33,229 bases of DNA from Opitutus sp. GAS368 (GTDB taxonomy: Bacteria; Verrucomicrobiota; Verrucomicrobiia; Opitutales; Opitutaceae), in assembly GCA_945871085.1 (NCBI GenBank), contig CAMBVX010000027.1:1-33229 (forward strand), read 5' to 3'. Shown here in pieces: positions 24,733 through 29,840 of the stretch. Each line of letters begins with the position of its first letter. Positions within the stretch are counted from its first letter, which is position 1. The notes under the pieces are model-generated. The model was given only the letters and a program-made list of their open reading frames with translations. It was not told where the DNA came from and did no database searches. The position numbers and the translations under genes were made by a program.

Positions 24733-27525
24733 TCAGAGTTTCCAGCGCACCCCGAAGTTCGCGCTGATGCCGTATTCCTCCCACTGCGTGAATCGTCCCG
24801 CGCTCTCGGCAAAATGCACGCGGAAGGCTTCGTTCGTGACATTCAGCACCTCGCCAAACAGCTCCCAGTTGCGGCTCAGCTTGTAGCTCGTCGTCAGGTC
24901 CAGCTGCGTGAAGTAATCCACGTAGCGATCTTCCGTCACGTTCGCCCCGAGCGGTTCGTCTTCGCGCAGCCGCGGCGAGCGGAAATTCACCGCCGCCCGG
25001 ATGAAGAATCCGTTCTTCTCATACGTCAGCGCCACGTTCCCGATGCGCCGCGACTGCCCGATGAAAGGCAACTTCTCTCCGGGGCGCGTGGGAAAATTGG
25101 CCTGCGAACTGGCAACCGTGTAGTTCGTGAACACTCCGAGGCCGTTAAACGGCGCCGGTAGCGAGGTGAATTGCTGCTGGTAGGCCAACTCCAGTCCCGT
25201 GATTTGCCCCCGGTCGCCGTTGGCAAACGTGCTCAGGTCGTAACCAGTCGAGGCATCCGCGCCCGGCAGGGTCCGCTGATAGGTAAAATTCTTGATGTCC
25301 TTGTGAAACACCGACGCCGACACCGAGCCAAGCGACGCGAAGTAGTGCTCGATCGAGGCATCCCAGTTCATCGCCGTCAGCGCTTTCAGACCGGGATTGC
25401 TCTCGGTCACGAGCCGGGTGTCGTCGTTGATCGTGCGGCGCAGCGCATTTTCCGCGAACGATGGACGAGCATACGTGTTGCTCCACGCCGCCCGGACGAC
25501 CGTTTTAGGCGCCAGATTGTAGGTCAGGTAGAGGCCCGGCAGGAAATTATCGGACGTCCGGCCCCGCGTGCCGGGCGTCGCCGTGATCGCCGTGCCGACC
25601 GTCTTGATCACGTTGCCCTGCGTGTCGAACGCCGTGTGCTCGTAACGCGCTCCCGCCATGAGCTGCAGCCGGTCCATCGTCACTCCGCCCACCGCGTAGA
25701 GCGCCGTCACATCTTCGTTCGCGGTCCAGTCCGACCCGAGACTGGTGATGACATCGCGGGTGGCGGTATAGGCACCCTTATTGTCGATAAACGCCGTCGT
25801 AAATTTCGCCGCACTCAGCCGCGGTCCCGTCAGGTAACCATAATCCGACGACGTTTGCGGCTCGGCGAGCGATTGAAACGTGTAGGCGGCCGTCGCGGCA
25901 TAGTTGATCTGCTCGACCTCCTGCTGCTTCTCCTTCGCGCGAAACTGCGCACCGAACTTCACATAGGCTGGCAGCGACCCCGCAAGTGTGAAGCGGTTGC
26001 GCGCGTTTCCGCCCACGTTGAATTCCTTCTCGTAGCCCGTCGCGGGCGCACTGCGCAGCCGGTTAAATTCGGTAAACGAGGCCGGATCGCTGATCGACGT
26101 GCCCGCCGTCTGCGTCACGACCGGATTGTAGATCCCATTGGCAAACGAGTAGGTCCAATCCGTGCCGCGCGCCGCTTTGCGGAAGATGGTGACATTCTCC
26201 GGCCGGTTCTCCGTGCCTTCGCTGAAAGCTGCGCGTCCGTCAAACTGCCACGTTCCGCGCGTCAGCTCACCGCCGGCGCTCACCGAGTAAACTTCCTGCT
26301 CCTTCGCCCGCACGCGGAGCTGTTTCGCCTCCCGGCGCACGCCCGTCACCGTCGCGCTCGTCGGCGTCAACGCCGTGAGCGTGCCCTCGGAAAACGGGAT
26401 CGTCGTAATCTGCCGGATCTCCGCATCCGTGAAACTCGAATACAGCCCGCGCACAAAGAACGCGGTCTCGCGGTCCGGCTTGAACTCGATCGCCCCGTTC
26501 GCGCCGTAGCGCGTGCGCGTCAGATCGTAGGCCCGGTAGTTAATATCGTTGTTGAAGAACGCCGTCTGCCCCGGCGCGCCGGGCACCGCACGCAGCGTCC
26601 ACGCGCCGCCGACTTCGAAATTATCCGAACCCATGCGACGGTTCTGCCACGTCGGGGAAAAGATCACGCCGATGCGACCGTCGTTAAACGTATCGGCATA
26701 CGTGCCGTTGAACTTCCCGCTGAGGCGGTCACGGAGGTCGTTGTATTGGCCCTGCGCAGCAAACTGCACTTGGCGCTCCTTCAGCTCGAACGCGCTCCGC
26801 GTCCGCAGATCCACGCGTCCACCGAGTCCGTCCATCTCCTTGTCCGGCGTCGCGACCTTCGTCACCTCGATCGCGCCGAGCGCATCCGACGGAATGACAT
26901 CGAGCGGCAGCGTGCGATTGCCGCGGTCCGGCGTGGCGACACTGACGCCGTTGAGCTGCACCGAATTCAGATCGGGCTTGATGCCGCGCACCACGATGAA
27001 GCGCCCCTCGCCCTGGTCGCGGTAGAGAGCGACGCCCGGGATGCGCTGGATCGACTCCGCCGCATTCTGATCGGGGAAACGACCGATGTCATCCGCCGCC
27101 ACGAGATTGGTCAGCGTATCAGCCGCCCGCTGTTGGTTGATCGCGCGCGCCGCGCCGACCGCTGAACCCTCGATCAAAAATTTCTCCATGCGCACCGTGG
27201 ATTCGCCGACCGCCACGTCCGCCGTCGCCACGCCACCCGCCGCCACCGTCACCAACTGTGTCGCCTCGGGATAGCCCACATAGCTCACGACCACGCTGCG
27301 CGCGCCAACCGGCACATTCACCAACACGTAGTCGCCGCCCTGCCCTGCAAACGTCTCGAGCGCGGTGCCTGCGACCGTCACCCGGGCACCGCCGAGCGCG
27401 AGGCGCGATTTGGCGTCGGTCACCCGACCGGCAATAGCGCCCGGGGCGGAAGACTGCGCGAGCAGTGCGGGCACCACTGACATAATGAGAAGAAATAGGG
27501 CGGTGAGGGGACGGTAGGCTTTCAT
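24733..27525 (-). CDS. TonB-dependent outer-membrane receptor (phytase-linked)
   Basis: From the ATG at 27525 (MKAYRPLTALFLL) this 930-aa protein has a signal peptide, a carboxypeptidase-regulatory-like domain (GAIAGRVTDAKSRLALGGARV, to about residue 115), a plug with NAAESIQRIPGVALYRDQ, VRGIKPDLNSVQLNGV and GRVDLRTRSAFE, and a long beta-barrel. The barrel ends with SANFGVRWKL, a normal C-terminal outer-membrane strand. It imports a substrate across the outer membrane using TonB. The phytase 13 bp downstream suggests inositol phosphates or their products as the substrate. The start at 27705 in the same frame was rejected because it lacks the signal peptide arrangement and crosses the operator-like site at 27670. 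Confidence 0.93.
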   Translation of the reverse strand: MKAYRPLTALFLLIMSVVPALLAQSSAPGAIAGRVTDAKSRLALGGARVTVAGTALETFAGQGGDYVLVNVPVGARSVVVSYVGYPEATQLVTVAAGGVATADVAVGESTVRMEKFLIEGSAVGAARAINQQRAADTLTNLVAADDIGRFPDQNAAESIQRIPGVALYRDQGEGRFIVVRGIKPDLNSVQLNGVSVATPDRGNRTLPLDVIPSDALGAIEVTKVATPDKEMDGLGGRVDLRTRSAFELKERQVQFAAQGQYNDLRDRLSGKFNGTYADTFNDGRIGVIFSPTWQNRRMGSDNFEVGGAWTLRAVPGAPGQTAFFNNDINYRAYDLTRTRYGANGAIEFKPDRETAFFVRGLYSSFTDAEIRQITTIPFSEGTLTALTPTSATVTGVRREAKQLRVRAKEQEVYSVSAGGELTRGTWQFDGRAAFSEGTENRPENVTIFRKAARGTDWTYSFANGIYNPVVTQTAGTSISDPASFTEFNRLRSAPATGYEKEFNVGGNARNRFTLAGSLPAYVKFGAQFRAKEKQQEVEQINYAATAAYTFQSLAEPQTSSDYGYLTGPRLSAAKFTTAFIDNKGAYTATRDVITSLGSDWTANEDVTALYAVGGVTMDRLQLMAGARYEHTAFDTQGNVIKTVGTAITATPGTRGRTSDNFLPGLYLTYNLAPKTVVRAAWSNTYARPSFAENALRRTINDDTRLVTESNPGLKALTAMNWDASIEHYFASLGSVSASVFHKDIKNFTYQRTLPGADASTGYDLSTFANGDRGQITGLELAYQQQFTSLPAPFNGLGVFTNYTVASSQANFPTRPGEKLPFIGQSRRIGNVALTYEKNGFFIRAAVNFRSPRLREDEPLGANVTEDRYVDYFTQLDLTTSYKLSRNWELFGEVLNVTNEAFRVHFAESAGRFTQWEEYGISANFGVRWKL

Positions 27526-27669: not shown

Positions 27670-27692
27670 TTTGTCACGTATTAAGTGACAAA
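27670..27692. promoter_or_regulatory. Operator-like dyad 1 (upstream of kynU)
   Basis: The pattern is TTTGTCAC-N7-GTGACAAA with a TA-rich centre; the two 11-bp arms around a central T differ at one position. It is identical over 26 bp (including flanking CA and C) to the site at 29174-29196. It lies 145 bp before the receptor ATG and 203 bp before the kynU ATG, so it could act on either side. Confidence 0.8.
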
Positions 27693-27735
27693 CTGTATTT
27701 AACAAAAATAAGATTCTTCATAGGTGTTTTTATTA

Positions 27736-27758
27736 TTTGTCACTTATTAAGTGACATA
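27736..27758. promoter_or_regulatory. Operator-like dyad 2 (upstream of kynU)
   Basis: The inner 19 bp, TGTCACTTA-T-TAAGTGACA, form a perfect palindrome about a central T; only the outermost arm has a mismatch. It lies 137 bp before the kynU ATG. It is the best symmetric member of the three sites. Confidence 0.8.
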
Positions 27759-27894
27759 CTGATTTGCGCTTCTACGGACTGGTTTTGGCGATTCGTCACG
27801 CGAGGGTCACATCTCGCGGGTCATTCTGTTGGCGAAACCCGCGGTCCCTTTTCTCCTTTGCACTCTCCACGTCCTCTGCGTGAGCCTCCGCGCC

Positions 27895-29169
27895 ATGTTC
27901 GCTGAACCCGCCGCCCTCGACGCCGCCGATCCGCTCGGCCGTTTCCGCGCCGAATTTTTCCTCCCGCCCGGAAAAATCTATCTCGACGGCAACTCCCTCG
28001 GCCTCCTCTCGCGCCGCGCGGAATCCCACCTCGCCCGCGTCATCGCCGAATGGCGCACGCTCGGCATCGACGGTTGGACGGAAGCCTCGCCGCCGTGGGT
28101 CACGCTCGCCGAAACCATCTCCGAAAAACTTGCCCCCCTCTTGGGTGCCGCACCCGACGAGCTCTGCCTCACCGGCCAAACCACGGGCAATCTCCATCAA
28201 CTCCTCGCCACGTTTTTCGAGCCAACTCTTCGCGCCGCAAATGTCATCCTCGGCGACGCGCTCAATTTCGCCTCCGACTCCTACGCACTCCAATCCCACC
28301 TGCGCCTCCGCGGCCTTGATCCCGCCAAGCACCTGCGCCTCATCCCGTCGCGCGACGGTCGTATCCTCCGCCTCGACGATATTCTGACCGCCTTCGCCGC
28401 ACCCGACGTCCAACTCGCTGTGCTCCCCGCCGTCGTATTCACGAGCGGCCAACTCCTCGACGTCGCCACGCTCACCCGCAAAGCCCGCCAGCACGGCCTC
28501 CTCATCGGCTGGGATCTGTCCCACAGCATCGGTGCCGTTCCGCACACGCTCGGCGGCGCCGACGGCCCGGACTTCGCCTTTTGGTGCAATTACAAATGGC
28601 TCAACGCTGGCCCCGGTGCCGTCGGCGGTCTGTTTCTCCACCGTCGCCACCACGCCCGCGTCCCCGGTCTCGCTGGCTGGTGGGGCGTCCGCGCCGACCG
28701 CCGCTTCGCCATGTCGCCGCACCACGAACCCGCCGCCGGTGCCGCTGCGCTCCACCTCGGCACGCCGCACATCCTCTCGCTCGCCCCCCTCCTCGGCTCC
28801 CTCGAACTCATCGAAGCAGCCGGCGGCCTCTGCGCCCTGCGCGCCAAATCCCTCGCGCTCACCGATTTTCTCCTCGCGCTGATCGACCGCGACCTCGCCC
28901 CGCTCGGCTTCACCGTCGCCACGCCGCGCGGCGAGCCGGCCCGCGGCGGCCACCTCGCCCTCGCTCACCCCGACGCGTGGCGCTTTTGCCAAGCTCTCAA
29001 AGCCGCCGACGTGGTCCCTGATTTTCGCGCCCCCGACCTGCTCCGTCTCGCCCCGTCTCCCCTCTACACCAGCTTCGCCGACTGCGCCGAAGCCATCGCC
29101 CGCCTGAAACACATCGCCCTCACCCGCGCCCACGAAAATTTCCCCTCCGCCCCCGCCCTCGTGCCCTGA
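27895..29169 (+). CDS. kynU: Kynureninase
   Basis: From the ATG at 27895 (MFAEPAALDAADPLGRFRAEF) this is a 424-aa PLP enzyme of usual length. Signatures are IYLDGNSLGLLS near the start, GQTTGNLHQLL, NFASDSYALQSH, IGWDLSHSIGAVPH, and FWCNYKWLNAGPGAVGG with the PLP-binding Lys. WWGVRADRRFAM follows. It cleaves kynurenine (or 3-hydroxykynurenine) to (hydroxy)anthranilate and alanine. kynB follows after 53 bp; tryptophan 2,3-dioxygenase, the usual first enzyme, is not in the window. An alternative TTG start at 27829 adds a signal-like stretch that is unlikely in a cytoplasmic enzyme. Two operator-like dyads lie upstream and one directly downstream. Confidence 0.95.
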   Translation: MFAEPAALDAADPLGRFRAEFFLPPGKIYLDGNSLGLLSRRAESHLARVIAEWRTLGIDGWTEASPPWVTLAETISEKLAPLLGAAPDELCLTGQTTGNLHQLLATFFEPTLRAANVILGDALNFASDSYALQSHLRLRGLDPAKHLRLIPSRDGRILRLDDILTAFAAPDVQLAVLPAVVFTSGQLLDVATLTRKARQHGLLIGWDLSHSIGAVPHTLGGADGPDFAFWCNYKWLNAGPGAVGGLFLHRRHHARVPGLAGWWGVRADRRFAMSPHHEPAAGAAALHLGTPHILSLAPLLGSLELIEAAGGLCALRAKSLALTDFLLALIDRDLAPLGFTVATPRGEPARGGHLALAHPDAWRFCQALKAADVVPDFRAPDLLRLAPSPLYTSFADCAEAIARLKHIALTRAHENFPSAPALVP

Positions 29170-29173
29170 AGCA

Positions 29174-29196
29174 TTTGTCACGTATTAAGTGACAAA
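29174..29196. promoter_or_regulatory. Operator-like dyad 3 (between kynU and kynB)
   Basis: This is the same TTTGTCAC-N7-GTGACAAA sequence as site 1, beginning 5 bp after the kynU stop codon and ending 27 bp before the kynB ATG. Its place inside the gene pair suggests that kynB has its own controlled promoter or that the protein bound here influences read-through. Confidence 0.8.
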
Positions 29197-29222: not shown

Positions 29223-29840
29223 ATGCCCCTCCTCGACATCACCCACCCGCTCTCCAACGCCACCGCCCCCTGGCCCGGCGACACCCCGTTCCACTTTGAG
29301 TTCGTCTGCCGGCTGCGCGATGGCGCCTCGTGCAACGTCGGCCGCTTCACCAGCGGTATCCACAGCGGCACACACATGGACGCCCCACTCCACTACAACG
29401 AAGCCGGCCTCTCCATCGACCAGCTCGACCTCGACATTCTCCTCGGCCCCGCCCGCGTCTTCCTCGCGCAAAACACGATGGTCCTCACCCGCGAACACTT
29501 CGCCGGCCTCGACGCCCGCGCCACCCCACGCGTTCTCGTGCGCACCAATCACTGCGACGACAAAACCATCTTCCCCGCGCGCATCCCGACGCTCGCCCCC
29601 GACGTCCCCGCCTGGCTCGGCGCGCAAGGCGTCCGCCTCATCGGCCTCGACCTGCCTTCCGTCGATCAAACCGACGACCCGACGATGCAGGTCCATCACC
29701 GCCTCGACGCCGCCAACATCATCATCCTCGAAAATCTCGACCTCCGTGCCGCCGCCCCCGGCCTCTACGAACTCATCTGCCTCCCCCTGAAAATCGCCGG
29801 CGCCGAAGGCTCTCCCATCCGCGCCGTCCTGCGCACCTGA
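29223..29840 (+). CDS. kynB: Kynurenine formamidase (cyclase family)
   Basis: This 205-aa metal-dependent hydrolase of the cyclase family has the hallmark HSGTHMDAPLH (HxGTHxDxPxH) at about residues 50-60, preceded by PWPGDTPF and followed by VRTNHCDD and LIGLDLPSVDQTDD. Bacterial KynB is a zinc enzyme of this size that hydrolyses N-formylkynurenine to kynurenine, the step before kynureninase. The neighbouring kynU makes this assignment firm. The ATG at 29223 is 27 bp after the third dyad and has no Shine-Dalgarno sequence. A membrane-protein remnant begins in another frame right after its stop. Confidence 0.93.
   Translation: MPLLDITHPLSNATAPWPGDTPFHFEFVCRLRDGASCNVGRFTSGIHSGTHMDAPLHYNEAGLSIDQLDLDILLGPARVFLAQNTMVLTREHFAGLDARATPRVLVRTNHCDDKTIFPARIPTLAPDVPAWLGAQGVRLIGLDLPSVDQTDDPTMQVHHRLDAANIIILENLDLRAAAPGLYELICLPLKIAGAEGSPIRAVLRT

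Follow-up and report, generated by a model that had tools for sequence, protein, structure and literature searches.

Palindromic Sites Around the Kynurenine Genes

The window, i.e., the whole stretch of 33,229 nucleotides of Opitutus sp. GAS368 that was analysed, carries the kynurenine genes kynU and kynB together with a TonB-dependent receptor gene (Table 1). An earlier sequence-only reading had described three 23-bp dyads here, and the sequence bears this out exactly: two lie before kynU, within the intergenic region common to kynU and the divergent receptor gene, and one between kynU and kynB, both of which had been correctly named according to their TIGR01814 and TIGR03035 matches. Copies 1 and 3 are indeed identical over 26 bp (common stretch CATTTGTCACGTATTAAGTGACAAAC), and the core of copy 2 is perfect over 19 bp (TGTCACTTATTAAGTGACA), with one outer mismatch. 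The exact 23-mer pattern has two matches in the window versus none in 100 dinucleotide shuffles. Among the listed open reading frames, no regulator gene lies beside the dyads, again as reported.

Table 1. Coordinates of the palindromes and genes discussed; positions refer to the window unless a contig is given.
Feature	Position	Strand	Remarks
TonB-dependent receptor	24733..27525	-	TIGR01782, E 2.5e-167; divergent from kynU
Palindrome copy 1	27670-27692	.	TTTGTCACGTATTAAGTGACAAA; precedes kynU; its two half-sites form a G/T hybrid at base 7
Palindrome copy 2	27736-27758	.	TTTGTCACTTATTAAGTGACATA; precedes kynU, at a distance of 66 bp from copy 1
kynU, kynureninase	27895..29169	+	TIGR01814 equivalog, E 4.1e-91, above cut-off; ATG start at 27895 assumed
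Palindrome copy 3	29174-29196	.	Between kynU stop and kynB start; sequence as copy 1
kynB, arylformamidase	29223..29840	+	TIGR03035, E 1.5e-61, 208 bits, just under curated cut-off of 223; Cyclase PF04199
HTH partner gene	G000 C64:1617-1988		Encodes 124 amino acids; two palindromes before and two after the gene

The sequence-only reading took these dyads for the operator of a kynurenine regulon. In the genome of the window (G000, 7.37 Mb in 630 contigs), the 19-bp core TGTCACKTAWTAMGTGACA (hereafter palindrome P) occurs without mismatch at 51 sites, whereas about 2e-4 would be expected by chance, and the reversed control gave no match even when one mismatch was allowed. Instead of a set of sites limited to kyn or tryptophan genes, the scan thus returned scattered copies that adjoin unrelated genes, the very outcome that the earlier reading had named as speaking against it, and on this ground the kynurenine regulon was ruled out. 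The sites at the kyn genes are three of the 51 dispersed copies and not a dedicated kynurenine switch. The part of the claim that stands is that the dyad behaves like the target of one protein; the part that falls is its restriction to kynurenine genes. As regulator, the best candidate is a small protein with a predicted lambda-repressor-like helix-turn-helix (HTH), encoded elsewhere in the genome (Table 1).

We retrieved the kynU-kynB locus of relatives via the KynB protein; being the one locus fetched independently of the palindrome, it is free of selection by it. The dyad between kynU and kynB is shared by G001, G004, G006, and G008, so that, together with G000, P occupies the same place in five of the six examined genomes that use it. 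It is missing there from G007, which has P elsewhere in the genome, from G002, which has the kyn genes and neither the HTH protein nor P, and from G005, which uses a TTTCAC-type palindrome. Comparison of G000 with the four relatives gives 91-96% identity for the 23-bp dyad and 44-52% for the spacer that leads to the kynB start. In the region before kynU, a single decayed relative of copy 1 is found at the same place in G001 and G008, with no counterpart of copy 2. Given its presence in five of six carriers, the diverged spacer, and its absence in G007, the kynU-kynB copy is, as far as sequence comparison can tell, held by selection or slow turnover in most carriers, yet dispensable. A kynurenine-specific operator as originally proposed is nevertheless highly improbable: the three copies around two kyn genes and the conservation in four relatives would fit it, but the 51 copies genome-wide stand beside unrelated genes, and the gene of the likely cognate protein is on another contig, between unrelated genes.

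Genomic Distribution of Palindrome P

A scan of 84,980 species genomes returned matches that, among those listed, belong almost all to Opitutaceae or other Verrucomicrobia assemblies. Across many Opitutaceae, about 212 clusters of P were located, of which 94 lie between co-directional genes, 53 in convergent and 27 in divergent spaces, and 34 inside predicted coding sequences; individual contexts may be wrong, since genes were called with a simple codon-usage caller of our own. In G000, the copies are mostly 3' or intergenic, and some lie in frame within proteins. Relative to intergenic length, convergent spaces are about twofold over-represented (53 observed, 26 expected) and divergent spaces under-represented (27 observed, 48 expected; chi-square p = 6e-9).

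This distribution bears on the possibility that P is the ordinary operator of a classical global regulator, whose retained copies would constitute a physiological regulon including kynU-kynB. Such a regulator would account for the retention of the kynU-kynB copy in five genomes despite diverged flanks and for copies upstream of kynU, TonB receptor genes, and sulfatase-like genes, but it is at odds with the convergent excess and divergent deficit, with the unrelated neighbors of P, and with the location of about one-sixth of the clusters inside predicted coding sequence. We therefore consider this explanation unlikely.

A viral origin was rejected: P had no match in 2.9 million viral contigs, PADLOC returned nothing, and PHROGs gave only weak HTH-type matches in one or two members each.

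A Probable Partner HTH Protein Bracketed by P

When the proteins neighboring the approximately 212 clusters were grouped by similarity, the largest group was a protein of 104-139 amino acids with P on both sides in most loci. This undescribed protein of about 120 amino acids, predicted to contain a lambda-repressor-like HTH, is the sole recurrent gene family bracketed by P among these neighbors, and its gene is syntenic within the genus. Among 57 relatives, a homolog was found in all 13 genomes with at least six exact copies of P versus 5 of the 38 with none (Fisher p = 2e-8), and those five P-free genomes have a variant palindrome of the same architecture beside the gene. When 388 genomes were drawn from the phylum, the protein was present in at least 18 genomes of the same family among those listed, which include no confident match outside the family. 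A single genome may encode up to eight copies.

Palindromes flank most copies of the gene, usually on both sides; most copies have them ahead of the start codon, as a rule at 20-140 bp. Several copies (e.g., G128b, G169, G186b, G317b, and G337b) yielded no flanking palindrome, and G032 and G036 have the gene with almost no dispersed copies under the pattern used. Conversely, dispersed palindromes for which no matching protein was found among the up to 74 candidates scored per genome, several of the assemblies being drafts, occur in G024, in G012, and as the TGTCACG family of G028, G030, and G018; these families may have lost their partner, may borrow another protein, or may have a gene that was missed.

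The AlphaFold2 model of the protein (pLDDT 80) has five helices; one spans residues 76-84, and another, at 88-96, is where the recognition helix would be expected. The protein also features a long N-terminal helix and a conserved GxTxxPGxxTPLW segment. Its fold matches in the PDB are weak, none having an E value below 0.001, and the best are mostly HTH domains of XRE/Cro/C proteins, phage repressors, and antitoxins with E values above 0.1; a sequence search of the PDB gave only marginal homeodomain matches, and Pfam YdaS and HTH_3 matches fall below the gathering cut-off in nearly all members. No transposase signature was detected in the protein, only weak HTH matches.

Variant Palindromes and Residue-Base Covariation

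The palindromes beside the HTH genes come in variants that include TGTCAC-, TTTCAC-, TGTAAC-, TGTCAA-, TGTCAT-, TGTAGT-, TTTGCC-, and TTTTGC-, with a common TAWTA center, and the variant flanking the gene is usually the one dispersed in that genome. Thus, the dispersed and the gene-flanking palindrome are the same in G031 (TGTCAACTAATAGTTGACA), G025 (TGTCACCTAATAGGTGACA), G011 (TTTCACGTAATACGTGAAA), and G005 (TTTCACTTAATAAGTGAAA), and in G017 three HTH paralogs match three dispersed palindrome families. The general palindrome pattern has zero matches in most genomes without the HTH gene, and its reversed control has none throughout.

Across 40 non-redundant protein-palindrome pairs, mutual information is highest between R88 and base 2, followed by A78-base 2, A100-base 7, R90-base 6, I91-base 4, and Q89-base 4. 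To correct for phylogeny, a tree was computed from the protein with residues 74-100 left out. On this tree, changes of residue 93 and base 7 coincide on a branch eight times (p = 1.7e-5) and those of R90 and base 6 three times (p = 8e-4), and the positions of the recognition helix score above all others in the protein (p = 3e-4). For base 2 the tree shows a single change, and the link between R88 and base 2 therefore depends on one event.

In G000, residue 93 is Q and base 7 mostly T, while its relatives combine E93 with G. The half-sites of G000 combine at base 7 as 34 TT, 11 GT, and 6 GG sites, copies 1 and 3 of the window being G/T hybrids, and this genome seems to have been caught in transition at base 7.

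Taken together, the co-occurrence of P with the HTH gene, the gene-flanking variants, and the covariation of residues and bases indicate, at the level of sequence, that P is very probably the binding site of the HTH protein. We think it likely that a small, Opitutaceae-specific protein of the lambda-repressor/Cro-like HTH type recognizes P, and that P forms a dispersed repeat co-evolving with this protein.

Copy Turnover, Insertion into Genes, and the Possibility of a Selfish Pair

P might be a selfish, REP/REPIN-like element that is multiplied in trans by another enzyme, with the HTH protein serving the element through copy control or targeting and most copies being useless to the host. We regard this as quite possible, and several features of the copies argue for it. 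Copies turn over among species of one genus: among 83 site groups, 54 occur in one genome only, 29 in at least two species, and one in all seven, the orthologous places having been located through P itself. For all copies but the one at kynU-kynB, a comparison of conservation between core and flanks is biased, as these copies were located by their core. Copies are often paired, with conserved spacings that peak at 45-48, 54-56, and 77-78 bp, and in G034 a linker of 28-29 bp is conserved, which suggests that both members of the pair were copied together. P has also inserted in frame into unrelated proteins (described below), many G000 copies have MITE-like flanks, and a genome may hold several paralogous protein-palindrome pairs. 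On the other side, the partner is an HTH protein without transposase signature, its gene is itself syntenic in the genus, and some copies have kept their positions across as many as seven species.

Helical phasing as an explanation of the pair spacings was dropped, as values of 45-48, 55, 66, and 77 bp are not multiples of 10.5. Outside the core, the arms of copies from one genome still pair at flank positions 1 and 2 and no further, which is compatible with a 23-bp dyad or with copied subfamilies; a hairpin function may also be considered.

Copies inside coding sequences lie in one reading frame in 38 of 44 cases, a preference that is expected since the other frames often meet stop codons. 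They encode inserted loops, such as CHLISD...CHVLRD in an RlmN-like radical-SAM protein, where the insert is visible against a homolog without P. Sites within genes for this protein, a DEAD_2/Helicase_C_2 helicase, a lipase maturation factor, and a glycosyltransferase (L106:1661-2812, L076:2790-5318, L090:4020-5666, and L078:4377-5666) are each shared by between four and seven species of the genus.

Many copies in G000 lie within a decayed, MITE-like element of about 110 bp with conserved inner flanks around the palindrome; inverted ends (TAGTATTACTCGGTTAC) can be recognized around some of the copies. This element is best preserved at L083:4949-5060 (G000:C49) and is also seen at L097, L098, L105, and L107. 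Tandem arrays with up to nine palindromes and variants were observed at L408 (G001:C25:5242-5455 and around) and L490 (G003:C100); sister species hold one copy at these places, and the arrays represent expansion by tandem duplication.

Proposed Role of the Protein-Palindrome Pair

In the mechanism that we propose, the HTH protein would bind each 19-23-bp dyad as a dimer, its recognition helix 88-96 reading bases 2, 4, 6, and 7 of each half-site; in G000, the protein encoded on contig C64 would bind TGTCACTTAATAAGTGACA. Autorepression would result from the copies that precede the protein's own gene, most of which lie 20-140 bp ahead of the start codon. The tens of dispersed copies, often in pairs 45-48, 55, or 77 bp apart, could act locally, for the most part at 3' ends, as weak operators or as roadblocks formed by the bound protein, some of them being retained by selection. 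Overall, we favor autorepression combined with such local effects at the dispersed copies, and we rank the selfish reading only slightly lower.

More tentatively, the Opitutaceae may harbor an undescribed class of dispersed repeats, in which palindromes spread with a dedicated non-transposase HTH protein and are re-tuned genome-wide when its recognition helix mutates, as suggested by the combination of Q93 with T7 in G000 versus E93 with G7. No description of such a protein-palindrome pair was found among the open-access journal articles searched.

Comparison with Known Repeat and Regulatory Systems

Dispersed palindromes are known in many bacteria, and among their dedicated partners the RAYT transposase of REPs is the best described. 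P is paired instead with a predicted small, repressor-like DNA-binding protein. Dozens of natural protein-palindrome pairs yield a readable specificity code and make two questions testable, namely what maintains dispersed palindromes and how a set of sites follows a change in its protein; they also offer a set of apparently distinct small proteins predicted to bind DNA.

REP and REPIN sequences are short dispersed palindromes that occur in pairs or arrays, prefer convergent and co-directional spaces, insert into genes including those of DNA metabolism, and have a dedicated gene flanked by the repeats (PMC3733652, PMC8266576). P is likewise dispersed and paired, favors 3' and convergent intergenic space, enters genes, and flanks a dedicated gene, but this gene encodes a predicted HTH protein instead of a tyrosine transposase. 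The GTAG tag was present at 16 of 203 flanks of P versus 11.1 expected from shuffled flanks, and none of five inspected G011 copies has GTAG directly 5' of the palindrome. In a search of 57 genomes for Y1_Tnp, 30 loci (weaker matches being left out) were scanned with flanks of up to 1.5 kb, and none contains P at up to three mismatches. Since GTAG is not enriched, the scanned RAYT loci lack P, and the partner is not a transposase, an identity with REP/RAYT was ruled out, and we do not file P as a REP despite its REP-like behavior. Separately, G056, of the same order and another family, has 49 RAYT-like Y1_Tnp matches in a genome of 5.3 Mb, far above its relatives.

In another Opitutaceae genome, that of Opitutus terrae, palindromic repeats termed GTAG-17, GTAG-19, and GTAG-20 have been reported, some of them in both uvrA genes (PMC3733652), and these families may partly overlap with the variants of P. 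In-frame insertion into coding sequences, as seen for P, is also a property of the Rickettsia palindromic elements (PMC10969869); however, those are about 150 bp long, whereas P measures 19-23 bp and has a co-evolving protein.

With Cro/CI, restriction C-proteins, and YdaS-like XRE regulators, the HTH protein shares its small size, the lambda-repressor-like HTH predicted for it, and the presence of a dyad ahead of the gene that encodes it. It differs from them in its sub-cut-off Pfam scores, the long N-terminal helix with the GxTxxPGxxTPLW segment, the dyads also found downstream of the gene, and the tens of dispersed copies.

Noc, SlmA, and MatP each pair one protein with tens of conserved palindromes per genome. 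P resembles these systems in copy number and in having one candidate protein, and it might be a chromosome-organising site through which the protein structures or marks the nucleoid. The presence of 10-50 mostly intergenic copies would agree with this, as would the distribution in G011, whose 36 copies leave a gap of 2.1 Mb (2.54-4.66 Mb). However, in three closed genomes the positions of P were found to be unbiased with respect to dnaA (KS p = 0.20, 0.40, and 0.52), a weak test of an origin-terminus bias because the sampled GC skew of G011 does not switch at dnaA; moreover, the system occurs in only part of the family, being absent from many close relatives, and several different pairs coexist in a genome, unlike Noc, SlmA, and MatP. 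This explanation thus appears rather improbable. On the G011 chromosome (G011:C1, L498-L509), where dnaA is at position 50, switches of the sampled GC skew fall near 0.6-1.2 and near 4.2-4.8 Mb, and the palindrome gap touches one of these switches.
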